Source: Nonomuraea jabiensis (GTDB lineage: Bacteria; Actinomycetota; Actinomycetes; Streptosporangiales; Streptosporangiaceae). Taken from it: a DNA stretch of 64,000 nt. Shown here piece by piece: positions 42,174 through 57,296 of the stretch (position 1 is the first letter of the stretch; each line of letters opens with the position of its first letter). The stretch lies in contig NZ_JACHMB010000001.1 in the NCBI RefSeq assembly GCF_014204795.1, positions 12,862,501-12,926,500 on the forward strand. The letters are read 5' to 3'. The position numbers and the translations under genes are program-made. The notes beneath the pieces are model-generated. The model ran no database searches, was not told the DNA's origin, and was given only the letters and a program-made list of their open reading frames with translations.

Positions 42174-42668
42174 TCAGACGGCGGCGTGGAGCCAGCGGAC
42201 GGGCGCACCGTCGCCCGCGTACCGGAACGGCTCCAGCTCCTCGTCCCAGGGCCGGCCGAGCATCTTGTCCAGCTCGTCCTCCAGCACGCACCGCCCCTGG
42301 GCGGCCATCATCATCGCCGCCCGGAGCCGTTCCTCGGGGATCATGATGTCGCCCGCCGCGCCGATGACCGCGGTGAAGGCACCGAGCGTCGGCGTGTAGG
42401 CGTGGCGGGACCCGTCCACTCCCGGCGACGCGTCCTCGGTGATCTCGAACCTGAGGCGCTGCCAGCCCATGAGCGAGGAGGCGATGGCCGCGGCGATGCC
42501 GGCGCGGCCCTCCCACTCCGCCTGGGCCCGCACGACGTTGGGCGCGGCAGGTTGCGGAGTCCACGTCAGATCAACGGGCACGCCAAGGACACCCGCGACT
42601 GCCCATTCGATATGAGGGCACAGCGCGGGCTGAGCCGAGTGGACGTAAAGGACGCCACGAGCAGACAC
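42174..42668 (-). CDS. DUF3145 family protein
   Basis: A 164-aa protein from GTG 42668. The sequence GVLYVHSAQPALCPHIEWAVAG, then DLTWTPQPAAPNVVRAQAEWEG, GRCVLEDELDKMLGRPWDEELE and VRWLHAAV match DUF3145, an actinobacteria-specific family. I recall it located beside fabF in Streptomyces, as here. Function is unknown. It is convergent with the fatty acid operon. Confidence 0.85.
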   Translation of the reverse strand: MSARGVLYVHSAQPALCPHIEWAVAGVLGVPVDLTWTPQPAAPNVVRAQAEWEGRAGIAAAIASSLMGWQRLRFEITEDASPGVDGSRHAYTPTLGAFTAVIGAAGDIMIPEERLRAAMMMAAQGRCVLEDELDKMLGRPWDEELEPFRYAGDGAPVRWLHAAV

Positions 42669-42843
42669 CGGACCTCCCGTTTCGGTACGAGGTGCGCCTT
42701 CCCCAACGGCCTCGCCCCGGGATGATCACAAGTGACTAGGGAGAGACTACCGTCGGTCGCTATCCGGCACCAGAGGGGGGCCATACCAAGTTGGTGCGGG
42801 AGTGGCATGTGACAGTTGGACCAGCGGGGAAACATACCGCCTC

Positions 42844-43857
42844 ATGGAAATTCAATCTGTCGGCGCGTCGCTCATCCGGCCTGGTCAGGTGCTGGCCGAC
42901 CGCGCGGCGCTGCCGGCCGTCTCACGCTGGACCCAGGCGGTCTCGGAGGCGGACGGCGTCTGCGTGATCCACCTGTCGCCCGGCGCCGACCCCTGCGAGA
43001 TCACCGCCGAACTCCGCGAGCGGGGCCTGCGGGCGTCGCCGAACCACGTGTTCCGCGGCCAGCCCCTGTTCTTCGGTGGTCCCGCGTCCAGACCCTTCCC
43101 CACCCCGCCCATCGCCCACAAGCCGGGGCGGTCCCGCTCGGGCGTGGTGGTGGGGCTGCTCGACACCGGCATCGCCAAGCACCCGTGGTGGTCCGGCAGC
43201 GACTGGTACGGCCAGACCGCCCCCGAGTGCGCCGACGCGACGGAGGGCTCGCAGGCGGGGCACGGCACGTTCATCGCGGGCCTGCTGACCCGGCGGGCCC
43301 CGGGCGCGGAGCTGAGCGTGCACCGGGTGCTCGACGGCGACGGCATCGGCGACGAGGCGACCGTCGTACGCGCGCTCCACCGCCTGCGCGAGCGCCCTCC
43401 GCAGGTGCTCAACCTCTCCTTCGGCGGCCACACCTACGACGACCGCCCGCCACCGCTGCTGAGCGACGCCATCGCCGCGCTGCCCGACACGGTGACCGTG
43501 GCCTGCGCCGGCAACACGGGGTCCGACCGGCCGTTCTGGCCCGCCGCGCTGCCCTCCGTGGTGGGCGTGGCCGCCGTGGACGCCGACGAGGAGGAGCGCG
43601 CCCCCTACTCCGGCTACGGCATCTGGGTGGACGCCTGCGCCCGCGGCGACTGGCTGACCAGCAGTTTCCTGGACGGCGGCGACTTCGCGGGATACGCGGC
43701 GTGGAGCGGCACGTCGTTCGCCACCGCCCTGGTGGCGGGGGCCGTCGCGGACGGGGCCAAGAGCGAGCCGGCCAAGGAGGTCGCCAGACGGCTCTTCGAG
43801 TCTGAGCAGGCCCGGCAAATTCCCGATCTGGGAGTTCTGATCCCGGCGAGTCTGTAG
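42844..43857 (+). CDS. Subtilisin-like (S8) serine protease without signal peptide
   Basis: A 337-aa S8 protease. The triad is Asp107 (VVVGLLDTGIAKHPW), His140 (GHGTFIAGLL) and Ser291 (WSGTSFATALVAG); Asn224 (CAGNTGS) supplies the oxyanion hole. About 95 residues precede the catalytic core and could act as a pro-segment or recognition domain. No signal peptide or TM helix is seen, so the enzyme is probably cytoplasmic. ATG 42844 is preferred to the longer frame from 42802. It lies 73 nt upstream of the ECF sigma gene on the same strand. It may be activated by, or cleave, the CHAT module partners. Confidence 0.88.
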   Translation: MEIQSVGASLIRPGQVLADRAALPAVSRWTQAVSEADGVCVIHLSPGADPCEITAELRERGLRASPNHVFRGQPLFFGGPASRPFPTPPIAHKPGRSRSGVVVGLLDTGIAKHPWWSGSDWYGQTAPECADATEGSQAGHGTFIAGLLTRRAPGAELSVHRVLDGDGIGDEATVVRALHRLRERPPQVLNLSFGGHTYDDRPPPLLSDAIAALPDTVTVACAGNTGSDRPFWPAALPSVVGVAAVDADEEERAPYSGYGIWVDACARGDWLTSSFLDGGDFAGYAAWSGTSFATALVAGAVADGAKSEPAKEVARRLFESEQARQIPDLGVLIPASL

Positions 43858-43930
43858 AGTTTACGCTCAGTCCTCAGCCAATCACGGGGAGGCATGATCG
43901 CCTGCTCGTGCCGGACGGAAGGAGGCCGCG

Positions 43931-44458
43931 ATGCGCGATCCAGCGGAGCTGCTCGCAGCGGCGGCCGAGGGCGACCGGACGGCCTGGGACGAGCTGGAGT
44001 CCAGGTTCGGGCCGCGCATGTGGGCGGTGGCCCGCGCGTGCGGCCTGAGCCCCTCCGACGCGGCGGACGCGGTCCAGGGCTCCTGGTTGCGCCTGCTGCA
44101 GCACCTGCCGAGCATCAGGGATCCCGCCGGTGTGGGAGCCTGGCTCGTGACGACCGCGCGCCGCGAAGCCCTCCTGCTGCTGCGCAAGGATCGTCCCGGG
44201 GTCTCCTCCTTCGAGGTCGCCGAAGACCCCGACCCCGAGTCCGCCGTCCTGGAGGCCGACGGCCGGCGCCTGCTCTGGAAGACGGTCTCCGACCTGCACG
44301 AGCCCTGCCGCTCACTCCTCCAGCTGGTCGCCGTCGACTTCGGCAACCAGCAGATGGCGGCACGGCTCGGACTGCCCGTGGGCAGCATCGGTCCGACCAA
44401 GGCCCGATGCCTGGAAAAACTGCGCACTCTGATCTCGATACAGGAGACAGCGCAATGA
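43931..44458 (+). CDS. ECF-type RNA polymerase sigma factor
   Basis: A 175-aa sigma-70 family protein with only regions 2 and 4. Region 2 includes DRTAWDELESRFGPRMWAVARA, ADAVQGSWLRLLQHL and ARREALLLLRKDR. Region 4 includes LLQLVAVDFGNQQMAARLGL then PVGSIGPTKARCLEKLR. The start has a strong GGAAGGAGG. The stop overlaps the next ORF start (ATGA). No zinc anti-sigma is adjacent; the coupled small gene may take that role. The target promoter is not identifiable here. Confidence 0.9.
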   Translation: MRDPAELLAAAAEGDRTAWDELESRFGPRMWAVARACGLSPSDAADAVQGSWLRLLQHLPSIRDPAGVGAWLVTTARREALLLLRKDRPGVSSFEVAEDPDPESAVLEADGRRLLWKTVSDLHEPCRSLLQLVAVDFGNQQMAARLGLPVGSIGPTKARCLEKLRTLISIQETAQ

Positions 44459-44901
44459 TCAACGACGAGTATTTCCTGGCGGCCCTCCGGTTGGCCGCCG
44501 GGAACGACCCGATCCCCGGCCACGTGTCCGCTGCCGCGCGCGACGCCTACCGGCTCCGCGTCCCCGGGGCGGTGACGGCCGACCCCACCGACCTCGGCGC
44601 CGCCGGCGGCGTACGCGATGACGAAGGCTGCCATCTGGTGCGCTTCGTCGTGGCGGGCCTCACCTTCGACCTGGAGATAACGATCGGCGACGGGCTCATC
44701 GACGTGGCGGGACACGTCGCCCCGTACCCGGGGGAGGGCGCGCTCATCGATGTGCGCACCCCCCATCTGACGCTCACCCGGCGGATCGCCGGCTCCGGCG
44801 ACTTCGCCGCCACCGGCCTGCCGCCGGGCTGGCTGAGCGTGGTCTGCCACCGCCCCGGCCACAAGCCCGTCCAGACGCGGTGGGTGCGCATCCGGCCCTG
44901 A
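44455..44901 (+). CDS. Small partner protein between ECF sigma and CHAT protein
   Basis: A 148-aa protein whose ATG overlaps the sigma stop by 4 nt. The N-terminus is a helical segment (LLAALRLAAGNDPIPGHVSAAARDAY style: LAAGNDPIPG, SAAARDAYRLR). It is followed by a beta-rich domain ending ATGLPPGWLSVVCHRPGHKP. I recall similar short proteins (DPVP..V..AAR helix plus a beta-sandwich with GLPxGxxxL) encoded between ECF sigma factors and CHAT/TPR proteins in many actinobacteria. Translational coupling to the sigma factor suggests an anti-sigma or sensor-adaptor role, not yet shown. Confidence 0.65.
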   Translation: MINDEYFLAALRLAAGNDPIPGHVSAAARDAYRLRVPGAVTADPTDLGAAGGVRDDEGCHLVRFVVAGLTFDLEITIGDGLIDVAGHVAPYPGEGALIDVRTPHLTLTRRIAGSGDFAATGLPPGWLSVVCHRPGHKPVQTRWVRIRP

Positions 44902-44928
44902 CGCGACCCTGATCCTCTTGTCGACCAG

Positions 44929-44954
44929 CCGAGAGAGCCCATCGCCTCTCTCGG
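44929..44954 (+). terminator. Perfect 9-bp hairpin before the CHAT gene
   Basis: CCGAGAGAG (44929-44937) pairs with CTCTCTCGG (44946-44954) around an 8-nt loop, between the sigma partner gene and the CHAT gene. It could be an attenuator that reduces CHAT expression relative to the sigma pair. Two CCAAGGCACC direct repeats follow before the CHAT start. Confidence 0.5.
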
Positions 44955-44998
44955 CCGTTCCGTTCCAAGGCACCGAGTTTCCCTCCCAAGGCACCCAT

Positions 44999-47524
44999 AT
45001 GAGCGCTACATCAGAGCGACCCGACGACCGAGATCCACTCGTCGTGGCGGCCGAGGCCGCTGTCATGCGCTCCCTGGTCGATCCCGACCACGCCCTTCAC
45101 GCCGCCCGTACCGTGCTCTCCTCCGCCCGCCGCGCCGGCGACCCCGAGGCCGAGGCCGTCGCGCACCGGGCCATCGCGCTGGCCGCCCGCGAGCTCGGCG
45201 ATCTGCGCAGCGCCGAGCACCACCTCCGCGAGGCCATCGCCACCCCGGGCGCCCCGCCGGAGCGCGTCGCCCAGGCCCGGCTCTCCCTCGTCACCGTACG
45301 CACCGAACTCGGCCACCCCATCCAGGCCCTGCGCGTGGCCGCCCTGGCCTGGGCCCACCTCTCGCCGCTCGACCGCGCCAAGCTCGACACCCAGCGCGCG
45401 GTCGCCCTGGCCCGCCTCGGCCGCCACCAGGAGGCCATCGCCTCCTGCGACCGCGCGCTGCGGGCTCTCGTGACCGCTCCCGGCACCATCGACGACCGCA
45501 GGTTCCTGGCGGGCGGGCTGCTCAACCGCGGCCTCGTCCACTCCTACCGCGGTGACTGGGACGCCGCCATGCGCGACCTCACCGCCTGCCTGGAGATCTC
45601 CCGGCACTCGGGGCTGCGGCACCTGGCTCGCCTGTCCGCCGCGAACCTGCCCTTCCTCGCGGTACGGCGGGGCGACATCGCGGGGGCGTTCAAGCTCTAC
45701 CGCGAGGCCGAGGACACCCTGTTCGGCTTCCCCGAGCGGCTGGCCACGATGCGGGCGGACTTCGCCGGCGCCCTGCTGGCCGCCCACCTGCCGGGCGAGG
45801 CCAGGGCCATGCTGAGCCTGGCCGTACCCGATCTGGAGGCGTCGGGGGCGCACGTGGCGCTGGCCGAGGCCCGGCTCAAGCTGGCCCAGGTGGAGCTGCT
45901 GACCGGCGACCCGCGCCGGGCGCTGGAGGTGGCCGAGCAGGCGGCCGGCGAGCTGGCCGCGCAGGACCGGACGTCGTGGCTGCCGCTGGCCAGGGAGGTC
46001 GTCCTGCGGGCCCGGCTGGCGCTCGAACCCGTCACGCCCGCCCTCGTCACCGACCTGGTCGAGTGCGCGGACGAGCTGGAGGACTGCCTGGCGCACCTGG
46101 CGGGCGCCGCCGCGCTGCGGCTGGTGGCGGCCGAGGCGGCGCTGGCCGTGGACGACCATCCGACGGCCTCGGCGCAGCTGGCCCTGCTCACCGAGCACGC
46201 CGAACGCGAGGAGCCGTTCCCCCCGATCGGCACCCGGCTCATCCCGCCGGATTCCGAGTCCGCCCGCGAGGCGCAGATCCCGGTGCCGGTGCGGCAGCAC
46301 GCGCTCGCCCTGGAGGCGTCGCTGCAGGAGGACGCCACGGGGGCCTTCCGGGCGGTCCGGGTGGGGCTGTCGGAGGTGAGCGAGCAGGTGGAGACGTTCG
46401 ACGATCCCTCGCTGCGCGCCCACGCGGCCAGGGCCGGGGAGCGGCTGGCGGGGTTCGGGCTGGGGCTGGCGGTGCGGGGCGGGTCCGCCGGGGAGGTGTT
46501 CGAGTTCGCGGAGCGGTGGCGGGCGGTGGCCGCGCCCTCGCACGCGTGCTCGCCGGTGGATCCCGAACGGGTGCGGGCGGAGCTGGGGTTCGGGGCGCTG
46601 GTGGAGTTCGTCGCGGACGAGGACGCGCTGCTGGCCGTACTCGTCAGCGGGGAACGGGTGTCGCTGCGGCGGGTGGGCGACGTCGGGCAGGTCAAGGAGG
46701 CGATCGTCCGGCTCCGTTACGCGCTGCGCCGCCAGTGCTCCGGGACGCCGCGTCCTCGCTGCGACCTGGAGAGCGTCGAGGTGGCGGCCCGGGAGGTCGA
46801 AGGGCTGCTGCTGCGCCCGCTCCTCGCCGAACTGGGAGACGGACCGCTGGTGGTGGTGCCCGTGGACGCCCTGCACACGCTGCCGTGGGGCGCGCTGCCG
46901 TGCCTGCGCGAACGCCCGGTCAACGTGGTCGCCAGCGCGGCCGGCTGGGTGCGGGCCCGGGAGCTCGCCCGCGCCCGCCGCAGCGGCCCGCCGGCGGTGG
47001 TGGCCGCGGCCGGGCCCGCCCTGGCGCACGCGCACGCCGAGGTGCGCAACGTGCTCGCCTGCCACCCGGACGGGCGCGAGGCGCCGGGGCGCACCGGGCC
47101 GGTGCTGGAGGCCCTGGCGGCGGCCGACGTCCTGCACCTGGCCGCGCACGGGGTCTTCCACGCGCGCAGCCCGCTGGTGTCCGGGATCACGTTGGAGGAC
47201 GGCTCGCTGATGGCCTACGACCTGCTGGACATCCCGCGGTCGCCGGGGCTGGTGGTGCTGTCGGCGTGCAACTCGGGGATGTCGCGCACGCCGGTGGAGG
47301 GGGCGCCGCTGGGCCTGCCCGGGACGTTCCTGGCCAAGGGGTCCGCGTGCGTGGTGGCGGGGCTGGTGCCGGTGCGGGACGAGGGGGCTCGGGCGCTCAT
47401 GAGCTTGTTCCACGAGCTGCTGGTGGCGGGCCAGCCCCCGGACGCGGCCCTGGCCTCCGCCGCCGCCAAGACCGGCGAAACCGGCTTCGTGTGCTTCGGC
47501 GCGGGCGATCGTCCGCTGTATTAG
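44999..47524 (+). CDS. TPR-CHAT protein (caspase-like protease)
   Basis: An 841-aa protein. Residues about 20-500 form TPR-like helical repeats (for example AEHHLREAIATPGAPPE; HQEAIASCDRALRAL; LLNRGLVHSYRGDWDAAM). The C-terminal 300 residues are a CHAT domain of the caspase fold. The predicted dyad is His717 (LHLAAHGVFHARSPL) and Cys757 (VVLSACNSG). Other CHAT blocks are PVDALHTLPWGALP and GLPGTFLAKGSACVVAGL. CHAT proteases cut specific partners when their TPR sensor is triggered, often in defence or cell-death systems. ATG 44999 has a weak AAGG upstream. Confidence 0.88.
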   Translation: MSATSERPDDRDPLVVAAEAAVMRSLVDPDHALHAARTVLSSARRAGDPEAEAVAHRAIALAARELGDLRSAEHHLREAIATPGAPPERVAQARLSLVTVRTELGHPIQALRVAALAWAHLSPLDRAKLDTQRAVALARLGRHQEAIASCDRALRALVTAPGTIDDRRFLAGGLLNRGLVHSYRGDWDAAMRDLTACLEISRHSGLRHLARLSAANLPFLAVRRGDIAGAFKLYREAEDTLFGFPERLATMRADFAGALLAAHLPGEARAMLSLAVPDLEASGAHVALAEARLKLAQVELLTGDPRRALEVAEQAAGELAAQDRTSWLPLAREVVLRARLALEPVTPALVTDLVECADELEDCLAHLAGAAALRLVAAEAALAVDDHPTASAQLALLTEHAEREEPFPPIGTRLIPPDSESAREAQIPVPVRQHALALEASLQEDATGAFRAVRVGLSEVSEQVETFDDPSLRAHAARAGERLAGFGLGLAVRGGSAGEVFEFAERWRAVAAPSHACSPVDPERVRAELGFGALVEFVADEDALLAVLVSGERVSLRRVGDVGQVKEAIVRLRYALRRQCSGTPRPRCDLESVEVAAREVEGLLLRPLLAELGDGPLVVVPVDALHTLPWGALPCLRERPVNVVASAAGWVRARELARARRSGPPAVVAAAGPALAHAHAEVRNVLACHPDGREAPGRTGPVLEALAAADVLHLAAHGVFHARSPLVSGITLEDGSLMAYDLLDIPRSPGLVVLSACNSGMSRTPVEGAPLGLPGTFLAKGSACVVAGLVPVRDEGARALMSLFHELLVAGQPPDAALASAAAKTGETGFVCFGAGDRPLY

Positions 47525-54587: not shown

Positions 54588-57296
54588 ATGCGCGGCGTGC
54601 GTCCGTTACGGCCGGGCGATCCCACGTCGGTGGGTTCGTACAAGGTCACCGGCTTTCTCGGCGAGGGCGGTCAGGGCAGCGTCTACCTCGGCGTCTCCCC
54701 TTCCGGCGAGCAGGTCGCGATCAAGCTGCTGCACGCCCGGTTCGCCGACGACGAGCAGGCGGTACGCCGCTTCCGCCGCGAGGCCGAGGCGGCCCGGCGG
54801 GTGGCCGAGTTCTGCACGGCACGCGTGCTCGAGGTCGGAGCGGTCAACGACCAGCCCTTCATCGTCGGCGAGTACGTCGACGGGCCCTCCCTGCAGCACC
54901 AGGTCACCAAGGAGGGCCCCGTCCAGGGCCCGGCGCTCATGCGGCTGGCGATCACCACCGCCACGGCCCTGGTGGCCATCCACGGGTCCGGGGTCGTCCA
55001 CCGGGACTTCAAGCCCAGCAACGTGCTGCTCGGCCCGGACGGGCCCCGCGTGATCGACTTCGGCATCGCCCGGGCGCTCGACATCAGCCAGAGCCTGACC
55101 ACCAGCATCGTGGGGACGCCCGCGTTCATGGCTCCCGAGCAGTTCCTCGGGGGGGCCTCGCCGGCGAGCGACGTGTTCGCCTGGGCGGGCACCATGATCT
55201 TCGCCGCCACCGGGCGCGGGGCCTTCGGCTTCGGGCCGCTGCCCGTGGTCATGCACCGCATCCTCAACCTCGACGCCGACCTGAACGGCGTGCCGGCGGA
55301 GATCGCGCCGCTGCTGTGGGCCTGCCTGGCCAAGGACCCCCGGCGCCGCCCCACCGCCGAGCAGCTGATGCGGGACCTCATCCGCGCCGGCGCCGCCCCG
55401 CCACCCGCTCCCTCGGCGCCCGCGCCGGCCCCTCCGGCAGCGCAGCCCGTCAGCAGCCCGCAGGCGATCGGGGGGCACTTCCGCCCAGGGCCGTATCCGG
55501 CCAGCGGCCCCGTACGGCCGCCCGCGCCGGGGGCCACGACCGAGCCCTCGCGGCGGCACGGGCAGCGCAGGGCGCTGGTCTCGATCGGGGCGGCGGCCAC
55601 CGCTCTGGTAACCGGGGTCGCGGTGTGGCTCGTGGCGCGCAGCCATCCCGAGGACTTCTCCCCGAACCCCACACCCACGTCCTCGCAGGTGGCGGCCTTC
55701 GGGACGGCCGTGACGTCCGTGGCCGACCCTTCGGCCAGGAAGGGCGGGACCCTGCGGGTTGTCTCGCCGTACGAGCTCGAGTCCGTCGATCCGGGGAACA
55801 TGTACATGCCGGATTCCCTGAACCTGGTGCGGCTCTACGGGCGTTCGCTGACGATGTTCAAGCCGGCGCCGGGAGCCGCCGGGACGCAGATCGTGCCGGA
55901 CCTGGCCGAATCGCTCGGTGTGCCGGGCGACGGCGGCAAGACCTGGACGTACAAACTCCGACAAGGCGTGAAATATCAGGACGGAACGCCGGTCACCTCC
56001 GAGGACGTCAAGTACGCGATCCTGCGGAGCATGGATCCCTCCCGCAACCTGGGATCGCCCTACTTCGAGCTCATGCTCGACCTCCCCTCCGGCTACCAGG
56101 GCCCCGCCAAGTCACCGAACGCGAACACCGACGCGGCCATCCAGACCCCCGACGACCGGACGATCGTCTTCCGCCTCAGGCGGCCGTACGCGACGTTCGA
56201 CGACGTCGTGCAGCTCCCCGAGACCGTCCCCGTGCCGCAGGCCAAGGACACGCGGGAGACCGTCCTCGCCTCGGGCCCGTACAAGATCGAGAGCGTGTCC
56301 GCCGACAAGAAGCAGGTCGTCCTCACCCGCAACGACCAGTGGGCCGCCGCCACGGACCCCAACCGCAACGCGCTCCCCGACCGGTACGAGATCGACTACC
56401 AGGTCGCCGACGCCGAGCAGCGGCTGCGGGCCGGAACGGCCGATTTCGGCTTCTTGAACACCTCGGCGAGCACCGAGGCCGCGGCGCTCGGCGATCCGGC
56501 GCTCAGGAAACGGGCCGACGTCCCGGTGGGCACGTCCGTGCGCATGCTGGCGATCAACCCGCAGGTGGCGCCGTTCGACAAGGTCGACTGCCGCAGGGCG
56601 GTGGTCCGCGCGCTCAACCTCAAGAACCTCGCCCGCGCGTTCGGCGCCGGACCGGCACAGTCCCCGCTGCCCACCTCGCTCGTGCCGCCCACGGTCGCCG
56701 GCGGTCGCTGGCGCGATCCGAACCTGAAGGCCGAGGGCGACCAGCAGGCCGCCAAGCAGTCGCTGGCCGCGTGCGGGAAACCGTCGGGGTTCTCCACCGA
56801 CTACGTCTATCGGGACCTGGGCACCGACAAGCAGATCGCCGAAGTCGTACAGCACGACCTCGCCGCGATCGGCATCGAGGTCACGCTGCGGCAGGTCTCC
56901 CCCGCGGAGTTCCACAAGACCTACGGCGGCAACCCCGGCAACCTCAAGCGGCAGGGCATCGGCCTGATCCCCAAGTCCTGGGCGCCTGACTGGCCCGATC
57001 CCGAGTCGTTCCTGTCGTCGATCGCCGACAGCAGGCAGATCACCGACACGTATTCGTTCAACGTGAGCGTCCGCGTCAAGGCGATCGACGACCTCATGGA
57101 CCGGGCCAGGGCCGAGCTCGACGCGGGCAAGCGGGCCGCCCTGTGGACCGAGGTGGAGCGGAAGCTCGCCGACGAAGCCGTGCTCGTGCCGCTGGTCTGG
57201 GTGTGCCCGGTGCTGCTACGCGGCCAGAACGCCGCCAACGTCCACGTCAGCCCCGTCTACGGCAACTACGACCTGCTCACCATGGGCCTCAAGTAG
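54588..57296 (+). CDS. Ser/Thr protein kinase fused to a family 5 extracellular solute-binding domain
   Basis: A 902-aa receptor-like kinase. Residues 18-270 are a Hanks-type kinase: GEGGQGSV loop, Lys46 (VAIKLL), HRD catalytic Asp140 (VVHRDFKPSN), DFG Asp157 (VIDFGIARA) and GTPAFMAPEQ. A Pro-rich linker leads to one TM helix (about 329-350, SIGAAATALVTGVAVWLVA). The outside part (about 385-902) is an SBP5 peptide/opine-binding domain (GGTLRVVSPYELESVDPGNM; YKLRQGVKYQDGTPVTSEDV). Peptide binding outside could regulate the kinase inside. AGGGAG lies 5 nt upstream of ATG 54588. Confidence 0.92.
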   Translation: MRGVRPLRPGDPTSVGSYKVTGFLGEGGQGSVYLGVSPSGEQVAIKLLHARFADDEQAVRRFRREAEAARRVAEFCTARVLEVGAVNDQPFIVGEYVDGPSLQHQVTKEGPVQGPALMRLAITTATALVAIHGSGVVHRDFKPSNVLLGPDGPRVIDFGIARALDISQSLTTSIVGTPAFMAPEQFLGGASPASDVFAWAGTMIFAATGRGAFGFGPLPVVMHRILNLDADLNGVPAEIAPLLWACLAKDPRRRPTAEQLMRDLIRAGAAPPPAPSAPAPAPPAAQPVSSPQAIGGHFRPGPYPASGPVRPPAPGATTEPSRRHGQRRALVSIGAAATALVTGVAVWLVARSHPEDFSPNPTPTSSQVAAFGTAVTSVADPSARKGGTLRVVSPYELESVDPGNMYMPDSLNLVRLYGRSLTMFKPAPGAAGTQIVPDLAESLGVPGDGGKTWTYKLRQGVKYQDGTPVTSEDVKYAILRSMDPSRNLGSPYFELMLDLPSGYQGPAKSPNANTDAAIQTPDDRTIVFRLRRPYATFDDVVQLPETVPVPQAKDTRETVLASGPYKIESVSADKKQVVLTRNDQWAAATDPNRNALPDRYEIDYQVADAEQRLRAGTADFGFLNTSASTEAAALGDPALRKRADVPVGTSVRMLAINPQVAPFDKVDCRRAVVRALNLKNLARAFGAGPAQSPLPTSLVPPTVAGGRWRDPNLKAEGDQQAAKQSLAACGKPSGFSTDYVYRDLGTDKQIAEVVQHDLAAIGIEVTLRQVSPAEFHKTYGGNPGNLKRQGIGLIPKSWAPDWPDPESFLSSIADSRQITDTYSFNVSVRVKAIDDLMDRARAELDAGKRAALWTEVERKLADEAVLVPLVWVCPVLLRGQNAANVHVSPVYGNYDLLTMGLK

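Follow-up and report, generated by a model that had tools for sequence, protein, structure and literature searches.

Here we describe a four-gene operon in a window of 64,000 nucleotides from Nonomuraea jabiensis (the whole stretch of DNA that was analysed, positions 12,862,501-12,926,500 of a single-contig genome of 13.17 Mb), which encodes a subtilisin-like S8 protease, an extracytoplasmic function (ECF) sigma factor, a small partner protein and a tetratricopeptide repeat (TPR)-CHAT protease. In all likelihood this is the gene set already reported around the sigma-factor group ECF54. We read it, tentatively and with a confidence that stops somewhat short of probable, as a housekeeping gene switch of the ECF54 type that operates by proteolysis in the cytosol, in which the CHAT protease, joined by the S8 protease, would cut a soluble anti-sigma partner and thereby free the sigma factor. 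Direct observation covers the gene content and the intact active sites; it also shows that sigma and partner are inseparable, that CHAT pairs with S8 and that the genes are inherited together as a unit. From open reading frame calls and their translations, the four genes lie on the + strand within positions 42844-47524 of the window:

42844..43857, + strand: cytosolic subtilisin-like S8 protease, 337 amino acids, PF00082
43162-43164, 43261-43263 and 43714-43716, + strand: codons of the S8 triad, Asp107, His140 and Ser291, respectively
43931..44458, + strand: ECF sigma factor, 175 amino acids, Sigma70_r2 and TIGR02937
44455..44901, + strand: small partner, 148 amino acids, candidate anti-sigma factor or protease substrate
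44614..44616, + strand: codon of partner Arg54, the putative cut site
44999..47524, + strand: TPR-CHAT caspase/separase-like protease, 841 amino acids, PF12770 and TPR models
47147-47149, 47267-47269 and 47378-47380, + strand: codons of CHAT His717, Cys757 and Asp794, respectively

A preliminary description, made from the letters of the stretch, had reported four same-strand genes at these coordinates, the overlap of the partner ATG with the TGA of the sigma gene, the S8 triad and the CHAT dyad, all of which were re-derived here. Its label of a 'signal-less' subtilisin with an intact triad also stands, because no signal-like hydrophobic N-terminus was found: the highest 19-residue Kyte-Doolittle mean within the N-terminal 60 residues of the S8 protein is 0.78, and the hydropathy and the invariance of the triad agree with that label.

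The sigma protein matches Sigma70_r2 (E 1.5e-10) and the sigma70-ECF model TIGR02937 (E 1.4e-14). Region 2 was assigned by Pfam and region 4 by eye from the alignment, and the family profile aligns along ECF sigma structures such as 1or7. Among 103 loci examined, 95 hold both sigma and partner genes, and in every one of these the sigma gene stands upstream of the partner gene on the same strand; the other eight are two loci with a partner and no sigma gene (L123 and L124) and six CHAT-anchored loci. The distance from the sigma stop to the first aligned partner residue has a median of 12 bases, does not exceed 60 bases in 76 of the 95 loci and is 400 bases at its largest. In terms of locus arrangement, this link is tighter than those joining the proteases to sigma. 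Such constant pairing fits the role of an anti-sigma factor or an adaptor for the partner.

Both proteases look active from their conserved residues. The S8 protein matches Peptidase_S8 in Pfam (E 4.9e-25), and Asp107, His140 and Ser291, together with the oxyanion Asn224, are unchanged in all 50 aligned S8 proteins. Its catalytic domain is preceded by an N-terminal extension of ~90 amino acids, and the ATG start is the same in the window as in the 15 Nonomuraea loci with which it was aligned at this point. The CHAT protein carries the CHAT domain (PF12770, E 1.5e-31) and matches several TPR models; the His717/Cys757 dyad is unchanged in all 52 aligned CHAT proteins and Asp794 is kept in 51 of them. 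According to the available text of PMC9729208, separase reads an arginine at the P1 position through D2151, where the TPR-CHAT protein of the Craspase system has K670. Asp794 may be the counterpart of separase D2151, a match drawn without an alignment, and perhaps reads a P1 arginine; the CHAT protease would therefore be Arg-specific.

Phylogenetic distribution places the operon among the regular genes of its order. With the partner alone as query, matches were obtained in 256 of 297 genomes and 55 of 62 genera of the order, and the partner profile found it more patchily in 88 of 296 genomes (48 of 114 genera) at class level and in 34 of 296 genomes (25 of 199 genera) at phylum level. The loci compared are stretches around partner matches, so that partner presence is built in, except for L007-L022 and L131-L140, which were picked by CHAT matches; they are mostly one per genus outside Nonomuraea and are not phylogenetically independent. 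All four genes occur together in 16 of 16 Nonomuraea, 27 of 40 family, 16 of 19 class and 10 of 16 phylum loci. At the same four levels, sigma is present in 16/16, 40/40, 19/19 and 14/16 loci, S8 in 16/16, 28/40, 16/19 and 10/16, and CHAT in 16/16, 39/40, 18/19 and 11/16, where one family locus (L077) stops at a contig end and one class locus (L098) holds just a weak CHAT fragment. In the five phylum genomes whose partner locus lacks CHAT, the gene lies elsewhere (531-880 bits). In the search with the CHAT protein, the relatives in named genomes were from Nonomuraea, with 16 loci at 72-81% identity in the best segment. Thus the idea of a functional set, which the separation of the four genes in related genomes would have undermined, survives: the genes were found together.

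The association extends to whole genomes. Across the 296 class genomes, CHAT (E<=1e-40) is found in 86 of 88 partner-positive genomes versus 14 of 208 partner-negative ones, a co-occurrence for which the Fisher test ignores phylogeny. Four of the 14 CHAT-only genomes were checked (L136, L137, L138 and L140), and each proved to have sigma and partner genes missed initially. Two partner-positive genomes lack such a CHAT match: in one of them nothing reaches E<=1e-15, and the other, 75% complete, has a 57-bit piece. The S8 protease is likewise far more frequent than its general abundance would give: 34 Peptidase_S8 matches across the 13.17 Mb genome correspond to ~0.04 expected per 16 kb, versus its presence in 26 of the 35 partner loci sampled at class and phylum level, as stretches that span 8-20 kb and in most cases 16 kb.

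Within the loci, CHAT and S8 lie before or after the sigma-partner pair, in either direction and in many arrangements. Ten CHAT loci of other genomes include four with all four genes together; in the other six (five of family f21 and one of f30), S8 adjoins CHAT in every case, and neither sigma nor partner was found within those stretches. Taken together, the arrangement and the co-occurrence data indicate that sigma-partner and CHAT-S8 are two gene pairs of one system. The N. jabiensis genome itself harbours a second complete set at about 8430400-8435600 (L094 on G000:C1, ~8.43 Mb), with S8, sigma and partner on the minus strand and CHAT divergent. The S8 family profile gives 423 and 305 bits for the S8 proteins of the two sets and at most 100 bits for others in the genome. 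Among the 75 four-gene loci, every one of the four gene trees gives the same two loci (L095 and L096 of family f20) as the nearest relatives of this second set, and it follows that the gene set stayed together as a unit. Two irregular loci may be mentioned here. L126 is a tandem locus, with partner-sigma-CHAT-S8 followed by partner-CHAT-S8, in which no second sigma gene was detected, and L115 has CHAT matches in three separate stretches, as if the gene were broken.

The partner comprises a conserved N-terminal segment (about residues 1-42) with a DPxP motif, an indel-rich linker (about 43-63) and a C-terminal region (about 64-146) that is faintly CarboxypepD_reg-like. For the window protein the match to CarboxypepD_reg is below threshold (E 0.0032; 18.2 bits, cut-off 32.3), and 34 of 52 members match at E<=0.1, the best at 1.5e-4; the window partner has no NCBIfam or PADLOC match. 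Within the linker, Arg54 is an arginine in 205 of 209 unique sequences (219 of 223 rows), flanked by two insertion sites, one directly ahead of residue 50 (up to 8 residues, 70 rows) and one directly ahead of residue 57 (up to 43 residues, 75 rows). Among all partner columns conserved to at least 90%, it shows the greatest contrast to neighbouring columns. In 211 of 223 rows the next residue is S, G, D or A, and the common context is G/A-V/A-R-S/G/D/A. A near-invariant arginine in such a linker fits a cut site.

The gene association itself is not new, because the same set is in print for ECF54. The available text of a 2022 review (PMC8999054) places carboxypeptidase, subtilase and CHAT genes around ECF54 and puts proteolytic control forward as a proposal; it cites Casas-Pastor 2021 and Huang 2015 for the group, and its table names Geodermatophilus amargosae SFT86700.1 as an example. 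The likeness to the window is one of gene context. The ECF sigma gene of the window has both a CHAT gene and a subtilase gene nearby, and no membrane-like hydrophobic stretch occurs in the four window proteins checked (highest 19-residue Kyte-Doolittle mean 1.6), in keeping with the lack of a membrane-bound anti-sigma factor in ECF54. As for the 'carboxypeptidase' gene of ECF54, its counterpart here is probably the gene of the CarboxypepD_reg-like partner, which constantly accompanies sigma. Our analysis goes beyond the review in dividing the set into sigma-partner and CHAT-S8 pairs, in showing that partner and CHAT co-occur almost without exception, in describing a second module within a single genome and in its prediction for Arg54; this prediction suggests that what was called a 'carboxypeptidase' is the regulatory partner and the missing anti-sigma factor.

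Craspase, of CRISPR type III-E, offers a direct precedent for the proposed switch. As described in the accessible parts of PMC9729208 and PMC11106740, it joins the TPR-CHAT protein Csx29, Csx30 and the sigma factor RpoE, with the partner binding sigma and being cut. Both have a partner protein, a sigma factor of the RpoE type and a TPR-CHAT protein whose dyad is His/Cys. The window differs in that no CRISPR gene, gRAMP included, was found among its scanned genes beside the operon; in the 148-residue partner, which has no solved-chain match; in the added S8 protease; and in Asp794, at the inferred position of K670. The window CHAT protein falls outside the Csx29 family (model NF041237, E 0.048; 12.5 bits, cut-off 300). 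A protease, an anti-sigma factor and an ECF sigma factor also form the CalpL/CalpT/CalpS trio of a type III CRISPR system, in which the protease cuts the anti-sigma factor (PMC11417357, in the part available); CalpL, however, is a Lon-type protease with a SAVED domain, triggered by cA4, and that part of the paper describes neither CHAT nor S8. A further system has a caspase-fold peptidase near an ECF sigma factor in common with the window, but is defined by an EACC2 component and a DUF1822 TPR gene, neither of which was reported for the Pfam-scanned window genes. The available portions of PMC8103513 and PMC7159879 contain nothing on the gene set, and no experimental study of the operon was found in a literature search outside which most subscription papers lay.

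The steps of the switch that we infer, namely binding, cleavage, the cut site, the order of events and the regulon, would run as follows. The N-terminal segment of the partner would hold sigma inactive until the TPR superhelix senses a stimulus and the CHAT protease is activated. CHAT would then cut the partner linker, most likely after Arg54, and S8 would act with it, either by finishing off the anti-sigma fragment or by amplifying the signal. Released sigma would reprogram transcription. It is tempting to go further and to regard the operon as a CRISPR-free, vertically inherited counterpart of Craspase in Actinomycetota, in which a separase-like, Arg-specific TPR-CHAT protease and a subtilisin cut soluble anti-sigma factors, of a family so far unrecognised, at a single linker arginine to free an ECF sigma factor, type III-E systems having borrowed an older cellular switch; we regard this wider proposal as somewhat unlikely. 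Proteolytic control of ECF54 was proposed in the 2022 review from gene context alone, and the locus map, together with the Arg54 and Cys757 predictions, makes that idea directly testable. If true, it would give a bacterial caspase/separase-like protease an everyday cellular role, wired like the CRISPR Craspase, and would supply a reason for the S8 protease travelling with the CHAT system.

Several results weigh against the proposed switch. In a mean-field coupling analysis of 210 sigma-partner pairs, inter-protein scores exceeded all 15 within-cluster shuffles, yet the top-1 and top-10 scores fell below all 20 phylogeny-only simulations. The excess over shuffles is thus accounted for by shared ancestry, and there is, at low power, no sign of co-evolving contacts; we have set co-evolution aside as support. 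The simulations were simple, with independent sites slightly more conserved than the real data, and the test had some power, since the strongest within-protein score exceeded all 20. Searched against the PDB set up to E 10, the partner profile finds no solved structure, so that the partner has no sequence link to Csx30 or a known anti-sigma domain; on this basis a relationship to Csx30 was set aside. Conservation of Arg54 could serve folding, and ECF54 is listed in the available text of PMC8999054 as being without an anti-sigma factor. Furthermore, S8 is missing beside 12 of the 40 family loci, where it is therefore dispensable or replaced. A profile search found an S8 of 168-271 bits elsewhere in four of these 12 genomes, one of which (G029) has two such genes within ~1 kb of its other partner copies, and none above ~100 bits in the remaining eight.

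Other explanations give the same genes different roles. The proteases might act on sigma itself and keep its level low, with the partner as a delivery adaptor or chaperone. This is the model proposed in print for ECF54 (PMC8999054, in the text available), and the CarboxypepD_reg-like region of the partner could be a peptide-binding adaptor. Nevertheless, we consider it unlikely: the CHAT protease of Craspase makes a single cut, which falls in a neighbour-encoded partner rather than in sigma, and the genes of CHAT substrates are said to lie commonly close by (both from the accessible parts of PMC9729208 and PMC11106740), while the sigma-partner link is tighter than either protease-sigma link. 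Less likely still is a zymogen cascade of CHAT and S8 with targets of its own, sigma and partner serving only to transcribe genes needed after activation. The adjacency of CHAT and S8 in the six stretches that lack sigma and partner would suit such a cascade, as would the S8 extension if it were a prodomain. However, S8 is missing from 12 of the 40 family loci, whereas 39 of the 40 have CHAT, and in most loci sigma and partner adjoin CHAT.

The preliminary description had also raised a bacterial conflict or cell-death role, and knew of no characterised example of the arrangement. Its proposal of a gene cluster has been borne out, whereas these two claims have not: Craspase, the CalpL/CalpT/CalpS trio and the ECF54 gene set are all in print. 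CHAT proteases do work in conflict systems, as in Craspase and the SAVED-CHAT cascade mentioned in the available text of PMC11229360, and the PADLOC matches are modest, S8 matching a subtilase model (9.4e-8) and CHAT matching BovA (0.0025), with none for sigma or partner. An anti-phage or cell-death system is, even so, the most improbable of these explanations in our estimation. A defence-type distribution (patchy, mobile or island-borne) was not found in the order, where the partner is present in most genomes; the locus is near-core there and syntenic in its family. Its place is fixed: one flank is formed by acyltransferase, ketoacyl synthase, carboxyltransferase and DUF3145 genes, and the opposite flank by rhodanese, phosphodiesterase, DUF5998 and acyl-CoA ligase-like genes. 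Tens of the 60 loci compared have neighbour families in common, several of the clusters being antisense shadows of real genes. A single one of 72,556 plasmid records matched, a Nonomuraea gerenzanensis replicon of 11.85 Mb. On the near-core distribution, the fixed place beside fatty-acid genes and the modest PADLOC matches, the reading as a defence island was set aside.

Upstream of the operon, a perfect palindrome, ACCAAGTTGGT, lies at window positions 42785-42795 between DUF3145 and S8. The sequence ACCAANTTGGT occurs once in the window and in none of 100 shuffles. The palindrome is kept in the aligned Nonomuraea loci, with single changes in a few, and looks like an operator. A longer block 5' of S8 (42668-42844) is conserved across genera; it may belong to either gene, because the divergent DUF3145 gene has the same block upstream. 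For the same reason, the blocks 5' of S8 were not taken as a shared ECF-type promoter of the operon. Weaker conserved blocks precede sigma in at most 6 of 40 loci and CHAT in at most 10 of 39. Directly 5' of the S8 ATG, inspection by eye shows no evident ribosome-binding site, as if the transcript were leaderless. Elsewhere in the window, positions 54588-57296 encode a single protein in which a kinase domain is followed by a family-5 extracellular solute-binding domain.

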